DNA of 64,000 nucleotides from Bacteroidota bacterium (GTDB lineage: Bacteria; Bacteroidota; Bacteroidia; NS11-12g; UBA955): positions 124,001-188,000 of the forward strand of contig JAGXTF010000118.1 in assembly GCA_018333525.1 (NCBI GenBank). Direction: 5' to 3'. Position numbers and translations under genes: made by a program. The notes below the pieces were generated by a model. It was not told the origin of the DNA. It saw only the letters and a program-made list of their open reading frames with translations, and made no database searches. Below, piece after piece: positions 1-58,805 of the stretch. Every line of letters begins with the position of its first letter. Positions within the stretch are counted from its first letter, which is position 1.

Positions 1-365
1 TTTATGGTTTTTCCGATTGGATAATTTCTAATAAGGTCAGGATGAAAAATCAATAACCATCCATCGGGGTGCTCATTTTCGCTTTGGGTCGTTGATGCAA
101 TTTGGCCCGGTTCCATAAATGCTAAAACTCCTTCGTCAAAGTCGTAATAATTTTGACCATAACTGAACTTGCAATCAGAGTTATGCTTTATTGAAACTGT
201 GTAAAAATTCAATATTACTTTAACCGAATTCTCTATGGAAGATAAATGAACATCGCTATAATTTATCAAACTAACCAATGGGTGTTTAGGCTTTGGGACT
301 CCCATTAATTTATGCAATTCCGAAACAGAATTTATTTTAATGATTTTATTTTCTTTTGAACTCAT
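1..365 (-). CDS. AraC-family transcriptional regulator, N-terminal part (cut by window edge)
   Basis: About 121 residues are visible, starting from ATG at 363-365 and running off the left edge. The N-terminus (residues ~20-120) looks like the ligand-binding cupin-like half of AraC regulators: a 'PKHPLVSLI' stretch, then 'FMEPGQ' and 'GWLLIFHPDL', which are typical in Bacteroidota AraC proteins. The DNA-binding helix-turn-helix half lies outside the window. The start is 2 bases after the stop of the short-chain dehydrogenase, so the two are co-transcribed, and the regulator probably controls that reductase operon (inference). I am fairly sure of the family but cannot see the HTH. Confidence 0.75.
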   Translation of the reverse strand, partial: MSSKENKIIKINSVSELHKLMGVPKPKHPLVSLINYSDVHLSSIENSVKVILNFYTVSIKHNSDCKFSYGQNYYDFDEGVLAFMEPGQIASTTQSENEHPDGWLLIFHPDLIRNYPIGKTI

Positions 366-367
366 AG

Positions 368-1294
368 TCATTTAAAATTATAAATAATTTGGGTTAATTT
401 TTCAGAAACCTTCCACAGTTTTCCAGCTATCTCTTTTTCATAGGATTTGTGACTTGACTTTACCAATTCAGGGTATCCGCGCATTTCATTCATTTTGGTT
501 GGTCCAAAATATTCACCACCTGTTACACCTGTATCTGTTGCTGCTCTTAATATTGGTAATGTACCCATCTTAACGTTCTGTGCAAGTAAATTAGTAATTA
601 TGGCTTGAACAAAAAAACCTGTATGCCTTGTAAGATTTGTTTTTGTATAGCCTGGGTGAGCTGCAACAGCTGTAATGTCAATCTTGTTCGCTTTCAGTTG
701 TCTGTCTAATTCGTAGGCAAATAATAGGTTTGCTAGTTTGCTTTGAGTATAGGATATGTATTTGTTATATCCTTTATCAAAATTTAGGTCATCAAAATGA
801 ATATCGGGCTTTCCCATTTTTGCCTTGTGTTGTCCGCTTGACTGTATTGCTATACGAGAATTAGGTGTGCTTTTTAATAAGTCCAAAAGTAAACCAGTTA
901 GCAGGAAATGTCCTAAATGATTCGTTCCAAATTGAACTTCAAATTTTTGTTTGGTTAGTTCTCGTTTTACCGGAAACATAACTCCTGCATTATTTATGAG
1001 CACATCAAGTTGCTTATACTTCTTATGAAACTCTTCAGAAAATTTATGTATTGAAGCAAAGTCGGACAAGTCTAGTTGCATTAGATCTAACTTAGCAATA
1101 GCGTTTTCTTTTTTGATAAATGAAATTGCTTCATTACCACTTTTCAGGTTACGGGCAGTCATAACTACGTGAGCACCTTTACTGCTCAATACTTTTGTTG
1201 CTTCTAATCCAAGTCCACTATTTGCACCAGTAATGAGAATTGTTTTTCCCTGCTGTGAAGGAATCTCGTCTGCTGTCCAATTTCTTGTTGCCAT
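368..1294 (-). CDS. Short-chain dehydrogenase/reductase (SDR), oxidoreductase
   Basis: Classical SDR of 308 residues. Visible motifs are the cofactor loop TGANSGLG (22-29), NNAG (101-104), a Ser-Ser pair near 152-153, and the catalytic Tyr182-x-x-x-Lys186. The N-terminus 'NWTADEIPSQQGK' resembles the usual start of retinol-dehydrogenase-like SDRs. It likely reduces or oxidises a carbonyl/alcohol with NAD(P); the substrate cannot be told. The first 17 codons and the leader are duplicated about 1.1 kb upstream, where they are fused to a foreign DJ-1-like gene. The gene sits 21 bases after that gene's stop and 2 bases before the AraC regulator, so it is probably the middle gene of a three-gene operon. 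Confidence 0.9.
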   Translation of the reverse strand: MATRNWTADEIPSQQGKTILITGANSGLGLEATKVLSSKGAHVVMTARNLKSGNEAISFIKKENAIAKLDLMQLDLSDFASIHKFSEEFHKKYKQLDVLINNAGVMFPVKRELTKQKFEVQFGTNHLGHFLLTGLLLDLLKSTPNSRIAIQSSGQHKAKMGKPDIHFDDLNFDKGYNKYISYTQSKLANLLFAYELDRQLKANKIDITAVAAHPGYTKTNLTRHTGFFVQAIITNLLAQNVKMGTLPILRAATDTGVTGGEYFGPTKMNEMRGYPELVKSSHKSYEKEIAGKLWKVSEKLTQIIYNFK

Positions 1295-1312
1295 TTTTTA
1301 TATTTTTAATTA
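1251..1312. repeat. Direct repeat copy A (SDR leader plus first codons)
   Basis: 62 bases covering the ribosome-binding region and first ~14 codons of the SDR gene. It matches 2358-2420 with three substitutions and one base of length difference in a T run. The two copies flank the GC-rich DJ-1-like segment and define its ends. Confidence 0.9.
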
Positions 1313-1315
1313 CGG

Positions 1316-2401
1316 TTACTTACTCAGCTGCTTGCTGCTGGTGCGCCGGGCGGCTAGGGTGCTGGCGACGACGCTACGCAGTTTGGCAGTCTGCTGGTCG
1401 ATGGCCTGCGGGCCGTTGCCGGTAAGCAGTCGCACAGACGGCTCGTAGGCCAGTTTGGGGGCGGAGATATTGAAGGAAGTCGCAAGTGTGAAGCCAGCTT
1501 CCTTGATGGCCTTGTCGACGAAGAAGGAGAGTCGGGTCTTCTTGCCGGGGACGTGTGGGTAGAGGAACCGTAGTGCAAACAGCTCGCCGATTGTTGGGAC
1601 GGTCGAGATGGTGGCGGCGAGGAACGGGTTGTCGCCGACAAGGTAGGGGCTACCCTGCATGTCGACACGCTGCCTGGTGGAGGTCACCCCAACTGGTGCG
1701 TGACAGATCAGCGAGATGATGACCCCGTTTTCCCGGGCTAGGTGGAGGGTTTCGCCGAGCCACGGATTGTCATGGAAGTCGACCATGGGGGCGTGACCAC
1801 CTGGGGCGTGGATGAAGTCAAAGTCGGCGAAGGTAAAAGGGTCGGCCGGGTCGCGGTGACGCTGGACGAGTTCCTGCAGCGAGTGGAAAGTACCCTCGGG
1901 CAGCTTGTTGAGGCGGCGGATCAGTTCGGGGCGGTATTCAGCGAGCTCCGGCTCGCTGTTGGGCAATAGTTCGGAGATCGGGATCTTGCCTATGTGACGC
2001 TCCAGCAGCTGGACTTCCTGCTCACGGCGGGCCACCAACTCGGGGTAGCGCTGCCGGAAGCTGTTGACTTCGAACGAGTGGCGGCGCTGCTGCATTCGGA
2101 GTGGGATGGTCTTGGCACCGGTCTTCTCGATGGATTGCACAGACAGGGCCATGCCATTGATGTCTAGTTGAGGTGCGTTACCATCGGGAGTAACGAAGGT
2201 GAACTCGTAGTCGTTCTCGAACTCCTTAAGCACTTGTGCCATCTCAACCAGAAAGAACCCGGTCGAGATCGACTTGACGTCGGCCGGTTTGGTCAGCGGC
2301 AGCTGTCGGGCCGAAGAGATGATTATTAGTGCACGGCGCTTGGTGGTGGATTTCCTTTGCTGTGAAGGAATCTCGTCCGCTGTCCAATTTTTTGTTGCCA
2401 T
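1316..2401 (-). CDS. Chimeric DJ-1/PfpI-family protein (foreign, GC-rich) with SDR-derived N-terminus
   Basis: 361 residues. Residues 1-17 are a near copy of the start of the neighbouring SDR (MATKNWTADEIPSQQRK versus MATRNWTADEIPSQQGK). From about residue 20 the protein is a DJ-1/PfpI/Hsp31-like class I amidotransferase-fold protein: a first strand 'ALIIIS', the conserved acidic residue Glu53 in 'GFFLVE', PGGH (200-203), and the nucleophile elbow with Cys233-His234 in 'LICHAP'. Such proteins act as chaperones, glyoxalases or amidases; the activity here is unknown. The body is strikingly GC-rich (roughly 60% by eye) while the flanks are about 37-40%, which points to transfer from a high-GC bacterium. 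All nucleophile residues are intact, so it could be functional under the captured SDR promoter. Confidence 0.85.
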   Translation of the reverse strand: MATKNWTADEIPSQQRKSTTKRRALIIISSARQLPLTKPADVKSISTGFFLVEMAQVLKEFENDYEFTFVTPDGNAPQLDINGMALSVQSIEKTGAKTIPLRMQQRRHSFEVNSFRQRYPELVARREQEVQLLERHIGKIPISELLPNSEPELAEYRPELIRRLNKLPEGTFHSLQELVQRHRDPADPFTFADFDFIHAPGGHAPMVDFHDNPWLGETLHLARENGVIISLICHAPVGVTSTRQRVDMQGSPYLVGDNPFLAATISTVPTIGELFALRFLYPHVPGKKTRLSFFVDKAIKEAGFTLATSFNISAPKLAYEPSVRLLTGNGPQAIDQQTAKLRSVVASTLAARRTSSKQLSK

Positions 2402-2420
2402 TTTTTTAGGTTTTTAATTA
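2358..2420. repeat. Direct repeat copy B (now leader and N-terminus of the DJ-1-like gene)
   Basis: Second copy of the 62-63 base repeat at 1251-1312. Here it supplies the start codon (2401) and the first codons of the DJ-1-like chimera. It is probably the original SDR 5' end, since it lies next to the upstream operator-like dyad. Confidence 0.9.
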
Positions 2421-2452
2421 TGACACAAAGGTCAGAAACCTTAAAAGTGTCA
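2421..2452. promoter_or_regulatory. Operator-like element upstream of the DJ-1/SDR/AraC operon
   Basis: Nested inverted repeats: TGACAC (2421-2426) pairs with GTGTCA (2447-2452), and AAGGT (2428-2432) pairs with ACCTT (2438-2442). The same stretch also holds direct repeats GTCAGA (2431-2436 and 2449-2454), 18 bases apart, the kind of spacing AraC proteins use. It lies 20-50 bases upstream of the start at 2401, so it may be the site for the AraC protein at the window edge. This is inference from position and symmetry. Confidence 0.4.
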
Positions 2453-2505
2453 GAGTAGCCAATTCTCTGTATGTTGTATCCTAATCAAGGTTTTCCAGAT
2501 CATAG

Positions 2506-2680
2506 TTCTCCCCTGGTTGGTCTTTTTGAATTCTTGTGTATTTTTCAAATTCACTCAAACCTCGGTAAATTCATGAGACCAACCAGGCATTTTGGGAGAA
2601 TAAATTTGATTGGATTCATGGCGGTCGGTCTCACTCCGCTTCACTCCGCTTCACTCCGCTTCGCTTCGCAAAGACCAACC
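2506..2680. repeat. Twin-hairpin repeat sharing one 9-bp arm
   Basis: The arm GGTTGGTCT occurs at 2515-2523, inverted at 2576-2584, near-identically (GGTCGGTCT) at 2623-2631, and inverted again at 2672-2680. The first pair extends to 12 perfect bases (2512-2523 with 2576-2587), with outer arms TTCTCCC (2506-2512) and GGGAGAA (2594-2600). The second hairpin's loop carries three tandem copies of TCACTCCGCT (2631-2660). No coding sequence is present. Confidence 0.75.
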
Positions 2681-2799: not shown

Positions 2800-4971
2800 T
2801 TATTTCACCAGGGTCAATTCATCTACAATATTTTTGGCACCGCCGAGTTTGTCGACGATGAAAAATACAAAACGAATATCTACGCTGATAGTGCGTTGCA
2901 TATCGGGCATGAACATAAAATCACTGCTGATAGCTTCGTAATTACCATCAAACGCAATACCGATCAGTTCACCGTTTCCATTGATTACAGGACTTCCGCT
3001 ATTGCCACCGGTAATGTCGTTGTTGCTCAGAAAACAGGTATGCAATTCGCCATCTTTATCGGCATACATTCCATAATCTTTTTTGCGAATTAAATCCAAT
3101 AATGCAGGAGGTGCATCAAATTCAAAATCACCGGGAACATATTTTTCCAAATATCCTTTTGCAGTGGTAAATGTTTTATTGTGCACACCATCGCGTGGGT
3201 CGTAATTCATAATGGTTCCATAAGTAAGACGCATGGTACCATTGGCATCCGGCGCCCAGGCCTTGTCGGGATTCATTTGAATTTGTGCATTCAAAAACAA
3301 GCGGTTAGCGCGCATCAATTTGGAATTGATATCATCATAAGTTGGTTTCAATTTTACGGTGATGATTTCATAATATTCATTTACAATTGCAAACAAAGGA
3401 TCTTTTGCAAGCTTGGATGCACTTGGCTTTTCGAGGAATTTCGCCATTTTTGCTATAGAAGAAAACATGGATTTATTCCATAGATATTCCGCTACTTTGT
3501 TATAATCTCTTTTGTATTTCACAACCAACTCATTCAGCAATGCCGGCAAATTGTCGTGGTTCAGATCTTCGGAAAGGTGTCGGATTACTTCGGCCAAAAC
3601 CTGCTTTTCAATCGGTGCATAAAAACCATGGAAACTGGCCACCAGATTTTCGGAAAGTTTTGCGGTCATCTCTTTTGCATCGGCTGCTTTGGTTTTGTCT
3701 TTCAGCAGGGTATTCAGTTCGCGCATACTAAAGGCATTCAGCATAGCCTGAGAATTTGCTACTCCGTCTCCGAAATACACCTGATACAAACCATATTCAT
3801 TTAACAGTCTGTAGGCTTCATCGTATAAACTGGTAACATCTCCATACACATCCCCTTTACCGGTTGCGCGTACCCACTTTTCAAAATCCAGTTCTGCCGC
3901 TTTTCTTTTTTCGTACAAACCGGGTCTGGAAAGATCGTAAGCTTCACCTTTGAATTTGTTCCAGTAGTTGCCTAATCCAGCGAGTTTGTCGCTGTATTGC
4001 AAACGCACGGATTTGTCTGCCTTCATGTATTTTTCATACACATCCATAATGTCGCGGCGCAATTGCACACGCATGGGGCGCTCTTTGCCACCGAGGTACT
4101 TAATACCTTCGCTGTAAGTATATCTGGTTGTGCGACCAGGATAACCCATAATCATGGCGAAATCGCCGTCCTGGGTGCCTTTCAGGCTTACCGGAAAGAA
4201 CTTTTCGGGCTTATAAGCCACATTGTTTGCGGCATAGTCGGAAGGTTTGTTGTTGGTTCCGGAATAAATACGGAACATAGAAAAATCGCAGGTATGTCTC
4301 GGCCAGCGCCAGTTATCGGTTTCGCCGCCAAATTTACCTACGTTTTCCGGAGGAGTACCTACCAAACGAATATCGCGATACACTTCGTAATACATGGCCA
4401 GGTATTGGTTTCCACCATAAAAAGAAGTAACCTCCACCACATAATTTCCTTTGTCTTCGCCAAGGGCATCTTTGAGTTCTTTGTTTAATTCCTGAAGTTT
4501 TTTCATCAGGGCTTCTGTTCTTTTTGCTTCATCGCCATTAATTGCAATGCCATCCAGCACTTTGCCGGTTACATCTTCAATTTTGCGCAAAAATCCGATG
4601 TTGAAGTTCGCAGGGCGCTCTTCGGCCATGGATTTGGCCCAAAAGCCGTTGGTGAGGATATTGTCTGCATCCGTGGAGAGTGCTGCAATAGCGCTGTAAC
4701 CACAGTGGTGGTTGGTAAGGAACAGGCCTTGTCCGCTGATTACTTCACCGGTGCAGAACATTCTGCCGGATTTTTGCATCAAACGCACCACACCGTCTTT
4801 TACGCTGGCTTTGTTGATGCTGTAAATGTCTTCAGCAGTGAGTTTCAATCCTGCGGCCTGCATGGGGTCCTGTATTTTTTGCAACAATACAAGTGGCCAC
4901 ATTCCCTCGTCGGCGCGCAGGCTGAAAAGCCCTGCACAGGCAACGATCAAACTAAGTATTCTTTTTTTCAT
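2800..4971 (-). CDS. S46-family dipeptidyl peptidase, DPP7-like
   Basis: 723 residues from ATG 4971; an upstream in-frame start at 5028 would add 19 residues before the signal peptide and is less likely. Signal peptide is residues 1-~20 (MKKRILSLIV...). S46 peptidases are chymotrypsin-fold periplasmic enzymes that cut dipeptides from peptide N-termini. The catalytic His lies in TNHHCGY (~88-89) and the Ser in GGNSGSP (Ser658). The residue 18 after that Ser sets P1 preference in the family: Gly gives hydrophobic preference (DPP7), Arg gives acidic (DPP11). Here it is Gly676 in 'FDGNYE', so DPP7-type hydrophobic specificity is expected. It would serve peptide and amino-acid nutrition. A strong terminator follows. 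Confidence 0.93.
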   Translation of the reverse strand: MKKRILSLIVACAGLFSLRADEGMWPLVLLQKIQDPMQAAGLKLTAEDIYSINKASVKDGVVRLMQKSGRMFCTGEVISGQGLFLTNHHCGYSAIAALSTDADNILTNGFWAKSMAEERPANFNIGFLRKIEDVTGKVLDGIAINGDEAKRTEALMKKLQELNKELKDALGEDKGNYVVEVTSFYGGNQYLAMYYEVYRDIRLVGTPPENVGKFGGETDNWRWPRHTCDFSMFRIYSGTNNKPSDYAANNVAYKPEKFFPVSLKGTQDGDFAMIMGYPGRTTRYTYSEGIKYLGGKERPMRVQLRRDIMDVYEKYMKADKSVRLQYSDKLAGLGNYWNKFKGEAYDLSRPGLYEKRKAAELDFEKWVRATGKGDVYGDVTSLYDEAYRLLNEYGLYQVYFGDGVANSQAMLNAFSMRELNTLLKDKTKAADAKEMTAKLSENLVASFHGFYAPIEKQVLAEVIRHLSEDLNHDNLPALLNELVVKYKRDYNKVAEYLWNKSMFSSIAKMAKFLEKPSASKLAKDPLFAIVNEYYEIITVKLKPTYDDINSKLMRANRLFLNAQIQMNPDKAWAPDANGTMRLTYGTIMNYDPRDGVHNKTFTTAKGYLEKYVPGDFEFDAPPALLDLIRKKDYGMYADKDGELHTCFLSNNDITGGNSGSPVINGNGELIGIAFDGNYEAISSDFMFMPDMQRTISVDIRFVFFIVDKLGGAKNIVDELTLVK

Positions 4972-5079
4972 TGGTTTTTCTGAAAATAGGGGTGCAAATA
5001 TCCAATTTTTAAGCCGATTCAGGGCCAAACTATGTCCAAAAAAAGGTGAATCTTATCGGAGAATAGGAATTAAACCGAA

Positions 5080-5787
5080 TCAGTTTGCCAATTGGCTGGC
5101 TACTTCGCGAATTTCAAAACAAATACGGGCAGTTTCTGCCTGAATTAATGGATGCGGGGTATTGGGCAATATACTGAGGGTGGCGTTGGGTATGGCTTTG
5201 AAAATATCCAATGTTTCGTCCATACTCACCATGCGATCGCGGTCGCCGAGCATAATGCGGCAGGGTTTGGAAATTCCCCGTACATTTTCTGCGCTGATAG
5301 GACTGGTTTGCCCGAGTTCATGCAAAAAACCGCCAATCTGAAATACCAGTTTTTGCCAGTGATCTGCGCCGTGAACTTGTTTTAAATTCTCTACAAATGC
5401 GGGCACTTTGCTTTGCATTTTCATAGGATCCAGCATGGAAATTTCTCTTGCTGCAATATCCGGATCCCAGTGCATTTTAGTCCCCAGAGTAATTGCTGCA
5501 TCTATGGTCGGATTTTCTTGCAACAAGCTGCACAGGGCGAGGTAACCACCCATGGAATGTCCGAAAACAATTAACCCGGAATCCCGATGGAAGTTCTGAT
5601 GAATAAAATTATTTAAAAAATTACACATGACCTCCACCGTCCAGGTACCGTCTACAAAAGCCTCCCCCTGATGCCCCGGGAAATTGAGACATTTTACATC
5701 AAAATCATCGGATAATGAATTGGATATATCCTGAAATTCCGTGGCGGAACCAAGCGCACCGTGAAGCAGAAGTATTTGGGTTTTCAT
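5080..5787 (-). CDS. Alpha/beta-hydrolase
   Basis: 235 residues with the alpha/beta-hydrolase pattern: HG oxyanion segment at residues 9-10, nucleophile elbow GHSMGG with Ser78, a late Asp in 'LGDRDRMVS' and His in 'NTPHPL'. The catalytic triad looks complete. It is a cytoplasmic esterase or lipase-like enzyme of unknown substrate (no signal peptide). Its ATG overlaps the pyrE stop by 4 bases, so it is translationally coupled behind pyrE. Confidence 0.85.
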   Translation of the reverse strand: MKTQILLLHGALGSATEFQDISNSLSDDFDVKCLNFPGHQGEAFVDGTWTVEVMCNFLNNFIHQNFHRDSGLIVFGHSMGGYLALCSLLQENPTIDAAITLGTKMHWDPDIAAREISMLDPMKMQSKVPAFVENLKQVHGADHWQKLVFQIGGFLHELGQTSPISAENVRGISKPCRIMLGDRDRMVSMDETLDIFKAIPNATLSILPNTPHPLIQAETARICFEIREVASQLAN

Positions 5788-6419
5788 TGTTTCCAGTTTA
5801 TGGGATCCTGAGCAAAGGACTTTACAATTTCCAGTTTATCGGCATTTAAATAGCCATGTTCCACGGCAACTTCTGCCAATACAGGAAAAGATGCAATGGT
5901 GTAAAAGGGCACATTTGCTTCTACAAATCGCTGTTTGGCATCTTCAAAACCATAAGTAAACAGGGCAACCAGCCCAATTACCTCCGCTCCTGCTTCGCGA
6001 ACCGCCTGTACAGCCTGCAAACTGCTTTTGCCGGTTGAAATAAGATCTTCTACCAAAAGCACTTTGGATCCGGCTACCAAATGGCCTTCAATCTGATTTT
6101 TCATGCCATGTTTTTTGGGCTCAGGCCGCACATAACAATTGGGAAGTCCCATTACATCTGCCATTAAAGCACCATGTGCAATGCCTGCCGTTGCGATTCC
6201 TGCAATTACTTCCGTCTGCGGAAAATACTGTCGGGCAAGGGCTGCAAGCTCATTTTTAACAAAAGTGCGCACTTCGGGAAATGACAAAACCATGCGGTTG
6301 TCGCAGTAAATGGGAGACTGAATTCCGCTGGTCCATGTAAAGGGATTGTCAGGGTTTAGTTTTACGGCATTTATTTCCAGAAGAAATTTCGCTAAATTTG
6401 CGGCTTTATTGGAGGACAT
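5784..6419 (-). CDS. pyrE: Orotate phosphoribosyltransferase
   Basis: 211 residues, the usual length for PyrE. It converts orotate and PRPP to orotidine 5'-phosphate in UMP synthesis. The PRPP-binding motif 'VLLVEDLISTGKSS' is intact, and the N-terminal 'NPFTWTSGIQSPIYCDNR' is diagnostic. The start codon at 6417-6419 overlaps the start codon of the divergent Nudix gene (bases CATG), so each gene's promoter lies inside the other. Downstream it is coupled to an alpha/beta-hydrolase. Confidence 0.97.
   Translation of the reverse strand: MSSNKAANLAKFLLEINAVKLNPDNPFTWTSGIQSPIYCDNRMVLSFPEVRTFVKNELAALARQYFPQTEVIAGIATAGIAHGALMADVMGLPNCYVRPEPKKHGMKNQIEGHLVAGSKVLLVEDLISTGKSSLQAVQAVREAGAEVIGLVALFTYGFEDAKQRFVEANVPFYTIASFPVLAEVAVEHGYLNADKLEIVKSFAQDPINWKQ
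6393..6400 (+). promoter_or_regulatory. Promoter -7 box (TAAATTTG) for the Nudix gene
   Basis: Perfect match to the Bacteroidota TAnnTTTG box, 17 bases before the ATG and inside the antisense of pyrE codons 7-9. No clear -33 element. Confidence 0.65.
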
Positions 6420-7065
6420 GGGGCCGCAAATCTATAAAATTTACTTCAATGAAGGTGCCCTGGTGATTGCCGAATCACCTGCCGCACTTAGCGGCCTGCC
6501 GAATCTGTATTATATTGGGGATGATGAACTGCATAAAAGTTTCAAAATTCTCACCAATGCGGAAATGGCGGGTAAGGTTTTGAATTTCGGGCTTATAAGC
6601 GAAGACCCCGAAGCAACTTTTCGCGAATTCATTGAAGACTATACTGTAATTCAGGCAGCTGGAGGATTGGTATTCAACAAAGAGAACCAATTACTTACTA
6701 TCAAGCGCAACGGACTTTGGGACATGCCCAAGGGCAAAATTGAAAAGCACGAAGACCAGCGTGCAGCCGCATTGCGCGAGGTGATGGAAGAAACAGGCCT
6801 GAACATGATTAATATTTCTGAAAAAGTGGGTGCCACCTACCATGCCTATTTTGAAGATGAAGCCACCATGCTGAAAGAAACGCATTGGTATTTTATGAAC
6901 AGCAGCGGTAAAGGCAAATTAAAACCCCAGGAAGAAGAGGGAATTTCCGAAGTAAAATGGGCCGATCTGGATTGGTTCAAAGGACCGGAGTTTACCACTT
7001 ACCAAAGCATTCGCGATATTGTATCCAAGGCTCTGGCGAACCAGCCTGTAGTTTCCGAAATTTAA
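6418..7065 (+). CDS. Nudix hydrolase
   Basis: 215 residues from ATG 6418, chosen because it follows GGAGG and because family members begin near 'YKIYFN'. The C-terminal two thirds form the Nudix domain. The Nudix box runs from 'GKIEKHEDQRAAALREVMEETGL' with the REVMEETG core, which binds a divalent metal and hydrolyses nucleoside-diphosphate-linked compounds. The N-terminal ~70 residues are a Bacteroidota-type extension. The substrate is unknown. It is head-to-head with pyrE and ends convergent with coaD, overlapping by 3 bases. Confidence 0.9.
   Translation: MGPQIYKIYFNEGALVIAESPAALSGLPNLYYIGDDELHKSFKILTNAEMAGKVLNFGLISEDPEATFREFIEDYTVIQAAGGLVFNKENQLLTIKRNGLWDMPKGKIEKHEDQRAAALREVMEETGLNMINISEKVGATYHAYFEDEATMLKETHWYFMNSSGKGKLKPQEEEGISEVKWADLDWFKGPEFTTYQSIRDIVSKALANQPVVSEI
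6427..6434 (-). promoter_or_regulatory. Promoter -7 box (TAGATTTG) for pyrE
   Basis: Perfect TAnnTTTG box read on the minus strand, 7 bases upstream of the pyrE start and inside codons 4-6 of the Nudix gene. It mirrors the box at 6393-6400: TTTGCGGC (6397-6404) and GCCGCAAA (6423-6430) form an inverted repeat around the shared start. Confidence 0.65.
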
Positions 7066-7547
7066 AAATTTCTTTTTACCGAGTCCACATTTACCGCTTC
7101 GGGTACAAAGGGCTTAAAATTTCCGCCATAAATAATCAAATCGCGCACAATGGTGCTGCTGATATAGGCCAATTCAGGAGAGGTAATACAAAAAATTGTT
7201 TCAATTCCGGCGTCCAGTTCCCTGTTTAGTTGGGCTATATGTGCTTCATAGTCGAAGTCACTTCCATTTCTAAGGCCTCTTAAAATATAACGGGCACTGC
7301 GTTCCTTGCAAAAGGCAACTGTTAGATCTGAGTAACTTGCAACTTCCACTTTAGGTTCCTTTTTAAATATTTCCCGTATCCAATTTTCGCGGTCTTCCAG
7401 TTCAAACAGGGTTTGTTTTTTGGTATTGACGCCAATTGCCACAATAATTTTATCAAACAGCGGCAGGCTTCGGTTGATGATGTCTACGTGACCTAGGGTA
7501 ATAGGATCAAAAGTTCCGGCGAATACAGCAATTTTATTTTCCGTCAT
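7062..7547 (-). CDS. coaD: Pantetheine-phosphate adenylyltransferase
   Basis: 161 residues, normal length. It transfers AMP to 4'-phosphopantetheine, the penultimate step of coenzyme A synthesis. The nucleotidyltransferase motif 'GTFDPITLGHVDII' (T/HxGH) is at residues ~11-24, and the second signature (normally ISST.R) is present as 'ISSTIVRDL'. It overlaps rsmD upstream by 4 bases and is last in the DUF3822-rsmD-coaD operon, an arrangement common in Bacteroidota. Confidence 0.96.
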   Translation of the reverse strand: MTENKIAVFAGTFDPITLGHVDIINRSLPLFDKIIVAIGVNTKKQTLFELEDRENWIREIFKKEPKVEVASYSDLTVAFCKERSARYILRGLRNGSDFDYEAHIAQLNRELDAGIETIFCITSPELAYISSTIVRDLIIYGGNFKPFVPEAVNVDSVKRNF

Positions 7548-55993: not shown

Positions 55994-57979
55994 TTAATTT
56001 CCTTTTCTATTTTTTTCCAGTTTGCGCAATTCTTTTTTATCCATTTCAAAAATGGATTTTAATTCCGCACTCAGGTCTAAAGATTCTTTTTTGTTTTTTG
56101 GAGCTTGCGCAAAATTGTTGGTAGTACTTGGTCCCGACATATCGCGACTTCTGTCGTTTTTGGGCTTGCTCCACTGGTTGCGTGCACCACCATTGCTGCT
56201 GCGGGTTTCCGGCCCTCTGGCCCCACTGTAAGGTCTGCTGTCTCCACCTCTGCGGTTGCGATCGCCACCACCACCCTGCGGGCGGTCGTTTCTGCCGCGG
56301 TATCCGCCGCCGCCGCGGTTATCTCCGCCGCGGTCGTTGCGTCCACTGCCTCTTCTCTCTCTTCCACCGCCATCGCGGTCTCTTCCGCTTTGCGCGCGCA
56401 ATTCTATTTGAGCCCTGCGTCCGTTGTAAGTAATATTTTCTTTAAATGCAGCCTGTATTTTTTCAACTGACGCTGCATTTACTTCCACAAAACTGTAACT
56501 GTTTTTTACATCCACCCATGGAATTTGCGCTTCGTCTATACCTGCTGTTTTTGCAACAAATTCTTTAATGGTTTGTTTGTTCAAACCATCCAGACTTCCA
56601 AGTGTAAGGAACATTTTAATTCCGCCACCATGGCTAAATTCCTCGTTATTGCCATAGGCATTTAAATCCGGAGAATTTCTGTAATAATCCAAAAAGCGAT
56701 TAAATTCTACAGAAATAAATCTGGTAATAATTTCTTCTCTGGAAAGCTCGCTTAACTCTTCATAAATCGCAGGCATAAATGGTTCAATATCGCTACGGTT
56801 TACATCTACATTATGCACTTTTTTTACCAAAGAAAGCAATTGATTTTCGCATACTTCATTGCCCAATGGCAGTTGCACGCGGGTAAAAGTGGTTTTTACC
56901 AGGCGCTCAATCATTTTAATGCGGCCAATTTCTTTCATATTTATCAGCACCATGCTCACGCCTTTTTTACCGGCGCGTGCGGTACGTCCACTTCTGTGCA
57001 AATAACTTTCCGGCTCATCAGGTAAAGAATAATGAATTACGTGTGTAACATCATCTACATCAATACCGCGAGCTGCTACATCAGTTGCAACCAGCAATTG
57101 CAGGCTGCGGTTTCTGTAGCGTTTCATCACCACATCGCGTTGTGCCTGGCTTAAATCACCATGTAAAGAATCGGCATTGTATCCGTCTTTAACCAGCATA
57201 TCGGCAATTTGTTGGGTTTCAATTTTGGTGCGGCAAAAAACTATTGCAAAAATATCGGGGTGAAAATCTGCAATTCTTTTTAAAGCCATGTATTTGTCGC
57301 GTGCGTGTACCACATAGTATACGTGCTCAATATTTTTATTGGTTACATTTTTTTCACCCGAAGAAACTTCTTTCGGATTGCGCATAAAATTGCGCGAAAT
57401 ATTCAGCACTTCATTGGGCATACTCGCGCTAAACAACCAGGTATTTTTGGTGCCGGGGGTGTAAGATAAAATGGTGTCCAGATCATCTCTGAAACCCATA
57501 TTCAACATTTCATCCGCTTCATCCAGAACTGCAATTTGCACATTTTCCAAAATGGTTTTGCGCTTTTGCATAATGTCTACCAAACGGCCGGGAGTGGCAA
57601 CCACTACCTGCACGCCGTCTTGTATTTGTTTCAATTGTCCCTGAATGCTGGCACCGCCATAAACCGCAACCACACCAAAGCCGGGCAAATGTTTGCCAAA
57701 GGCTTCCAGGTCGCGGGTAATTTGCATGCAAAGTTCGCGGGTAGGGCTCAGGATCAGGGCCTGAATGTGTCTTTTGCGTGTATCAATACGCTGCAGCAGT
57801 GGCAGGCCAAAAGCTGCGGTTTTTCCTGTACCGGTTTGTGCCAGCGCAACCAGGTCGGTAGGGCTTTCCAGTAATAGAGGAATAGATTGTAATTGTATCG
57901 GCGTTGGTGTTTCAAAGCCCAGTTCGGATACAGCACGAACCAGCTCCGGGGCCAGGCCCAGATTTTCAAATGTTGTCAT
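55994..57979 (-). CDS. DEAD-box RNA helicase with DbpA and RGG-rich regions
   Basis: 661 residues. Core ~1-370 with Q motif 'PTPIQLQSIPLL', Walker A 'AQTGTGKTAAFGLP', 'VLDEADEMLNMGF', 'SAS' and 'HRSGRTARAG'. A DbpA-like RNA-binding domain lies ~450-525 ('KMFLTLGSLDGLNKQTIKEFVAK'). The tail ~530-625 is Arg/Gly/Asp-rich (many RGG), typical of disordered RNA-binding regions, and the C-terminus is Lys/Glu-rich. CsdA/DeaD-like; a likely role is ribosome assembly or mRNA unwinding in the cold. Leader of ~100 bases with a hairpin suggests regulation. Confidence 0.94.
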   Translation of the reverse strand: MTTFENLGLAPELVRAVSELGFETPTPIQLQSIPLLLESPTDLVALAQTGTGKTAAFGLPLLQRIDTRKRHIQALILSPTRELCMQITRDLEAFGKHLPGFGVVAVYGGASIQGQLKQIQDGVQVVVATPGRLVDIMQKRKTILENVQIAVLDEADEMLNMGFRDDLDTILSYTPGTKNTWLFSASMPNEVLNISRNFMRNPKEVSSGEKNVTNKNIEHVYYVVHARDKYMALKRIADFHPDIFAIVFCRTKIETQQIADMLVKDGYNADSLHGDLSQAQRDVVMKRYRNRSLQLLVATDVAARGIDVDDVTHVIHYSLPDEPESYLHRSGRTARAGKKGVSMVLINMKEIGRIKMIERLVKTTFTRVQLPLGNEVCENQLLSLVKKVHNVDVNRSDIEPFMPAIYEELSELSREEIITRFISVEFNRFLDYYRNSPDLNAYGNNEEFSHGGGIKMFLTLGSLDGLNKQTIKEFVAKTAGIDEAQIPWVDVKNSYSFVEVNAASVEKIQAAFKENITYNGRRAQIELRAQSGRDRDGGGRERRGSGRNDRGGDNRGGGGYRGRNDRPQGGGGDRNRRGGDSRPYSGARGPETRSSNGGARNQWSKPKNDRSRDMSGPSTTNNFAQAPKNKKESLDLSAELKSIFEMDKKELRKLEKNRKGN

Positions 57980-57996
57980 TTTTTTTGTGTAAAAGG

Positions 57997-58090
57997 CTCC
58001 CGGGTTGAATTCTTCGATCCTTTGGTCTAACGACAGGGAAGCCGGGAGAAGGAAAAACTCGTTGCGGTAGGTTTTCGGGGTGCAAAGGTA
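57997..58090 (-). promoter_or_regulatory. Promoter and long structured leader of the DEAD-box gene
   Basis: A perfect TACCTTTG box at 58083-58090 is about 104 bases before the start at 57979, unusually far for this window. Between them, CCGGGAG (58042-58048) pairs with CTCCCGG (57997-58003), forming a long-loop hairpin in the predicted 5' leader. Cold-shock helicase genes often have such leaders. Confidence 0.45.
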
Positions 58091-58099
58091 AGGGTAATA

Positions 58100-58445
58100 T
58101 GTGGATAAACCGCAATGGTTTTGTTTTTTCTTTTGGCCGGTGGGTTTATGTTAGCGCTTTTCCGGCCATTCGCCATACTCCGCAATGCGCGTCTGCACGT
58201 GGTTGCGGCCCTTCCGCGGGCTTCCTGCCGGTCGCCTGCTCAGCGGCGCAACCACGGCGCCGCACCTCGCTGCGGTATTGGCTGCTGTCCGGGCGGTGGA
58301 ATACAGATAACGCCCCTACGGGGCTGGGGTGTGGTGTAGTAGGGGAAAGACAGCTATTGTGCCCCTATGGGGCTAAGATAGAGAGGAGGAAGTAAGCGTG
58401 TAAGGCTATCGCTCCTACGGAGCTAGAGATTGTGTGTCTTCCTGA
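58100..58445. repeat. GC-rich island with hairpin and three palindromic GCCCCTACGGGGC-type units
   Basis: The segment ~58140-58300 is markedly richer in GC than its surroundings. GTGGTTGCG (58199-58207) and CGCAACCAC (58247-58255) form a 9-base-arm hairpin. Downstream come GCCCCTACGGGGC, GCCCCTATGGGGC and GCTCCTACGGAGC variants (58313-58425). It has no convincing gene and looks like a dispersed non-coding repeat. Confidence 0.7.
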
Positions 58446-58805
58446 TTAGAAAGTATTGCGAATGGTGAATTTGGGTTTATTCATATTCATAAAGCGGAAA
58501 TTCCACATGCGCACGTAGCCGTAATTGGCATCGTATCGGTAAATGCGAATTAAATGGTTGTGGCGGTATTTGTAAATGGTTAATGATTCATGGTTTATTT
58601 TAAACGATTTGCCATTTAATTTTCCATGTCGGTATTTTTTAAATTCTTTTGTTTTATTTATGGTGTCTATAAATATTAATGTCCCGTTTTTTATTTTAGC
58701 CGTATCGGAATATGTAAATGGGGCTGGGCGGTATCGTTCTCTGGCGCAGGAGCATAGAATGGAAATAAATAAGAGAACATATACAAATTGAAATATCATT
58801 TTCAT
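58446..58805 (-). CDS. Small lipoprotein of unknown function
   Basis: 119 residues from ATG 58805. Lipoprotein signal 'FVYVLLFISILCSCARERY' (lipid Cys ~18-20). The mature part is basic and Tyr-rich with a 'GKLNGKSFKINHESLTIYKYRHNHLI' segment that hints at a MORN-like beta repeat, but I cannot assign a family. Alone in its transcription unit. Confidence 0.6.
   Translation of the reverse strand: MKMIFQFVYVLLFISILCSCARERYRPAPFTYSDTAKIKNGTLIFIDTINKTKEFKKYRHGKLNGKSFKINHESLTIYKYRHNHLIRIYRYDANYGYVRMWNFRFMNMNKPKFTIRNTF

Follow-up and report, generated by a model that had tools for sequence, protein, structure and literature searches.

Mosaic operons created by horizontal gene transfer, in which a foreign gene is placed in a resident operon and comes under its control, are already known, and the described proteins closest to the one analyzed here are those of the Hsp31/HchA type (E. 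coli Hsp31, SAV0551 and 1u9c). The locus is a mosaic operon of this known kind, with a foreign DJ-1 gene adjacent to and co-directional with genes of another origin; an additional distinction is that the start codon and first residues of this gene derive from its neighbor. It lies at one end of the window, i.e., the whole analyzed stretch of 64,000 nucleotides (positions 124,001 to 188,000 of contig JAGXTF010000118.1, referred to as C118, from a Bacteroidota bacterium), and offers a readable case of a high-GC gene made expressible in a low-GC bacterium via the start and first codons of an operon gene.

Features of the chimeric locus (window coordinates unless C118 is given)
Feature	Position	Strand	Remark
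AraC-family regulator, start (308 aa)	1..371	-	runs past the window edge to C118:123445
SDR oxidoreductase, PRK06197-type, second operon gene	368..1294	-	NCBIfam NF004846, 388 bits (cut-off 268)
SDR leader with initial codons, downstream (genuine) copy	1244..1306	-	
Chimeric ORF	1316..2401	-	17 SDR-derived residues, then a DJ-1/Hsp31-like body from ~residue 20
SDR leader with 17 initial codons, upstream copy	2351..2413	-	start of the chimera
Presumed operon promoter region	2414..2494	-	also conserved 5' of the L009 fusion
Hairpin GGTTGGTC...GACCAACC	2515..2584	.	beside the cluster
Hairpin element	2623..2680	.	its initial 20 nt are found again at C118:123333, beyond the far end of the cluster, as a direct repeat
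S46-type peptidase	2800..5028	-	native flank; convergent to comM in relatives that do not carry the cluster

A chimeric reading frame at the head of an operon

The chimeric frame (361 residues, beginning MATKNWTADEIPSQQ) and the SDR (beginning MATRNWTADEIPSQQ) have in common the N-terminus MAT[KR]NWTADEIPSQQ, so that the first ~17 residues of the former are a copy of the latter. Similarity to DJ-1 proteins starts at about residue 20, where MPTTKRRAL of the native homologues corresponds to QQRKSTTKRRAL in the chimera. The underlying direct repeat (1244–1299 versus 2351–2406) is 91% identical over 56 nt and reaches ~63 nt when extended, which is too short for phylogenetic dating of the duplication. 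In the first 2.6 kb, the longest exact repeat is 20 nt, compared to a maximum of 15 nt when the first 6 kb were Markov-shuffled 40 times, and a search of the genome found no further copies of the SDR-leader repeat. The kilobase at 1351 has a GC content of 60.2%, against a window mean of 40.5% (sd 3.1%) and 52.0% for the top kilobase elsewhere. A second GC peak of the window (52%) is located at 57351–58600.

The DJ-1 end and the SDR start are separated by 21 nt, and the SDR stop and the AraC start have 4 nt in common (ATGA); therefore, the three genes, all on the minus strand, are read as one operon. Their GC3 values are 0.77 for DJ-1, 0.26 for SDR and 0.32 for AraC. A sequence-only reading of this DNA had pointed out the flanking repeat with its GC-rich insert, the in-frame use of the SDR start by the inserted gene, and the AraC link; the first was confirmed and the other two were supported, the last by gene order and spacing, which make DJ-1 the first gene of an AraC-linked operon. 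The DJ-1 body has lost its own ATG. Its proposal that the 5' end of the SDR gene had been duplicated requires modification: the repeat and the first codons stand, but the upstream homology of the two copies covers merely the last ~12–18 nt before the ATG, and the fuller promoter region is present 5' of the DJ-1 copy only, not of the SDR copy.

Foreign origin of the DJ-1 gene and of the operon

The DJ-1 body is 80–88% identical to proteins of Agromyces, Promicromonospora, Streptomyces, Pseudoxanthomonas and a Rhodocyclaceae MAG; more distant homologues (45–50%) are found in Streptomyces, Gordonia, Brevibacterium and Clostridium. The donor-type homologues have a GC3 of 0.86–0.95. These matches, together with the GC3 of the body itself, support the earlier suggestion of a high-GC donor lineage. 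Among 56 family and order relatives the DJ-1 body is absent, save for one weak 51-residue match; among 345 genomes of the class a high-similarity body occurs only in one other Bacteroidetes MAG (G225, the same record as locus L009), and among 396 genomes of the phylum no third case was found at high similarity. The omega of the DJ-1 body against its relatives is 0.13–0.25, and therefore the sequence is under purifying selection. Taken together, the foreign origin and the in-frame start capture of the DJ-1 gene are well supported. A recent plasmid vehicle was considered and rejected: the plasmid search returned only homologues below 60% identity (46–52%; Agrobacterium, Staphylococcus, Streptomyces).

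The other two genes are foreign to the window genome as well, and the operon was acquired whole, as a ~3.1 kb unit. A PRK06197-type SDR at E<=1e-80 is present in none of the 56 family and order relatives. In one family member (G003) the genes for comM and the S46 peptidase converge and are separated by no more than tens of bases, and in another (G018) they are neighbors with one extra gene between them; in the window genome the AraC-SDR-DJ-1 cluster lies between them, with a direct repeat on both sides. This repeat is a 20-nt pattern (one degenerate base), the only exact matches of which in the whole genome are the two cluster flanks, within hairpins. Thus, capture of the DJ-1 gene by a local operon, as assumed in the sequence-only reading, is not supported, for its SDR and AraC genes were themselves acquired. 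The assertion that the captured gene was promoterless is unproven: in the homologues, DJ-1 is preceded by a ribosome-binding site of its own and begins with its own ATG, and what is left of that site (AAAGGAA) may sit at the junction.

Several other features of the surroundings were observed. The loop of one of the GGTTGGTC...GACCAACC hairpins at 2506–2690 contains a tandem repeat of 10 nt (TCACTCCGCT). Genes for tRNA are typical insertion sites of islands; none was found near the cluster in the window genome, and in L009 a tRNA-Leu (caa) gene at 5268–5354 immediately precedes the cluster. Upstream of the window, ~43 kb separate the two parts of a split comM, the N-terminal part ending at C118:79550 and the C-terminal part beginning at 122793. 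Large serine recombinases are encoded at 79507–81012, at one end of the split, and at 98068–99915, suggesting that the ~43 kb between the comM halves is an integrated mobile element.

A related fusion and the formation of the chimera

The order in L009 is: promoter region, SDR-start remnant MATKNWTTDDIPSQQGKTILNTG, DJ-1, SDR2, SDR, AraC. Its promoter region, SDR start remnant, DJ-1, SDR and AraC are thus shared with the window. Identity between the two loci is 86% for the SDR, 91% for AraC and 92% over 143 nt for the promoter and leader; the window promoter region is also 84% identical to the sequence 5' of SDR2 in L009. The L009 cluster differs in its longer SDR remnant (~25 codons versus 17), a signal-peptide-like start, the extra SDR2 and the donor-like sequence kept 3' of the DJ-1 stop, of which more remains than in the window. 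Because of the longer remnant and the retained 3' donor flank, the window fusion looks trimmed at both ends. The L009 spacer between the SDR remnant and DJ-1 matches no SDR or donor sequence, and no other PRK06197-type SDR was found in the order of G225. The signal-peptide-like start (MRKVLTLLTLIIM / MRKVLTLLTLIIMTTNTASYGQ; L009 5911–6003) follows the SDR remnant; if it functions as such, the L009 DJ-1 may be exported, unlike the protein of the window.

The synonymous divergence (dS) between the window and L009 is 0.745 for DJ-1, 0.41 for the SDR and 0.33 for AraC. Since the L009 arrangement is like that of the window in diverged sequence, the DJ-1 arrangement probably predates the divergence of the two clusters (SDR dS ~0.41), and the description of the event as recent is not sustained. 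The two DJ-1 bodies group with 99/99 support in a DNA tree. However, base composition may be behind this grouping, because codon positions 1+2 give weak support (67/91) and the third-position changes in common are at the level of chance (10 versus ~11 expected). On positions 1+2, four changes are shared versus ~0.7 expected. The two loci have their architecture in common, and a single origin is the inference we favor.

We consider it moderately probable that an SDR-AraC operon of Bacteroidota took up, at its head, a DJ-1/Hsp31-like gene of a high-GC donor lineage, adjoining or within the 5' end of an SDR gene, and that this preceded the divergence of the clusters of the window genome and L009. 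Later trimming would have produced the in-frame fusion of the window, in which translation would have to start at the SDR-derived ATG because the native DJ-1 ATG is lost. The window genome gained the DJ-1, SDR and AraC operon as one block, placed between its comM and S46 peptidase genes. The corresponding region reads GAAAGGAACAAGT[TC]ATGCCCACCACC in native donors of the L003/L004 type, CAGCAAAGGAAATCCACCACC in the chimera, CAGCAGGGAAAAACA in the corresponding SDR sequence and CAGCAAGGAAAA in L009; as this short motif suggests, the window sequence would result if the two were joined at the AAGGAA that they share and a small deletion then took the ATG. L009 represents a different stage of what is seemingly the same process, and the pair could allow its steps to be ordered.

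As to whether the repeat arose through duplication by insertion or from an upstream SDR copy that was mostly deleted, the L009 comparison leans toward later trimming. A specific form of trimming, compatible with the capture reading and given somewhat less than even chances by us, starts from an ancestral array of SDR copy, DJ-1 and SDR copy, in which most of the upstream SDR was deleted and its start thereby joined to DJ-1, perhaps at AAGGAA. In the Rhodocyclaceae MAG (L004), DJ-1 stands between an SDR and the start of another SDR of the same family, and the presence of SDR on both sides of DJ-1 makes such a deletion plausible; the remnant in L009, longer than that of the window, its greater 3' donor flank, and AAAGGAA before the junction, resembling the native ribosome-binding site of L003/L004, are also in agreement. 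Conversely, no Bacteroidota locus with two intact SDR copies around DJ-1 was found, the shared motif is short, and the second L004 SDR copy runs to the contig end and looks rearranged. It should be noted that the L004 DJ-1 (6001–7285) is without ~15 residues near the N-terminus, and that in the SDR after it, at the contig end, residue ~72 is followed directly by residue ~241; these gaps appear to be decay or assembly error.

Compared to this scheme, the explanation given in the sequence-only reading, in which a promoterless high-GC gene was inserted once and recently into the SDR start of this lineage and ~63 nt of the SDR 5' end were duplicated, is quite improbable. The clean flanking repeat, its single place in the genome and the still high GC are what one would see after such an event, but promoter, SDR start and DJ-1 follow one another in L009 as well, foreign origin applies also to the SDR and AraC, and the ~9% difference between the repeat copies is comparable to the ~11% divergence of SDR-AraC DNA between the genomes. 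Two independent DJ-1 captures by the same SDR operon in two Bacteroidota, or the substitution of one DJ-1 for another, are unlikely, yet deserve more weight: the DJ-1 dS is about twice that of the SDR and AraC, the fusion junctions are not alike, the signal-peptide-like start is restricted to L009, and the grouping on positions 1+2 is weak. However, the same promoter and SDR start precede DJ-1 in both loci, the excess of shared first- and second-position changes argues for common descent, and GC loss after capture could inflate the DJ-1 dS. A contaminant DJ-1 piece joined through the 63-nt repeat during assembly is an explanation that we hardly credit: the genome consists of 118 contigs with an estimated contamination of 3.8% and the junctions are located at repeats, but the ORF is intact and in frame, and the assembly of another organism has DJ-1 at the same place with different junctions. 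A broader idea, that the promoter and SDR start form a reusable expression head to which foreign genes were repeatedly joined in small mobile AraC operons, is prompted by the copies preceding DJ-1 and, more weakly, SDR2 in L009, and by the chimera in the window; we regard it as very doubtful.

Enzyme family, neighborhood and comparison with known proteins

The AlphaFold model of the chimera has a mean pLDDT of 84.5, with values below 50 for residues 1–18, and therefore the SDR-derived part is probably a loose tail, disordered over 18 residues and with no catalytic role. The model has the flavodoxin-like DJ-1 fold, its nearest solved folds in Foldseek being 1u9c, SAV0551 and E. coli Hsp31 (E to 3.5e-12; TM-score by target 0.63–0.77). 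E53, C233, H234 and E273 are invariant in 17 sequences, with C233 as the predicted nucleophile-elbow cysteine, aligned with the C-H of 1u9c and HchA, and E53 as the conserved acidic residue; the four fit a predicted Cys-His-acid site. Scores remain below the Pfam gathering thresholds (DJ-1_PfpI, 17.8 versus 26.6 bits; ThiJ_like, 26.6 versus 30 bits) and the HchA equivalog cut-off (NF003168, 22.2 versus 365 bits), and therefore the protein represents a divergent branch of the superfamily: it belongs to DJ-1/PfpI by fold and motifs and is not a member of either Pfam family. It is probably a cytoplasmic Hsp31-like enzyme of the predicted glyoxalase III/deglycase/amidase class.

Of 16 loci examined that encode full-length homologues, 13 have an SDR gene close to DJ-1 (L002–L009, L011, L012, L015, L016 and L018, not L010, L013 and L014), and TetR genes are near DJ-1 in L003 and L004. 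These neighbors and the fold suggest a reactive-carbonyl pathway. By analogy with the families, the cofactor-free Hsp31-like enzyme and the NAD(P)H-dependent reductase probably act on reactive carbonyls under AraC control. The titles and abstracts of the literature searched contained no account of the DJ-1/SDR pairing. The case points to a divergent Hsp31-like enzyme associated with SDR genes over several phyla.

The actinobacterial and proteobacterial homologues (L002–L008) resemble the window protein in the highly similar body and the SDR neighbor; they differ in the native MPTTKRR start, the absence of an SDR-derived N-terminus and, where a regulator was identified, in having TetR, not AraC. 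Likeness to the Hsp31/HchA type consists of the best structural matches, the PGGH and C-H motifs, and the conserved Glu, Cys and His, whereas the identity is ~13–18%, the Pfam cut-offs for both families are not reached, and the window protein has an extra helical stretch of ~100 residues, at about residues 86–183.
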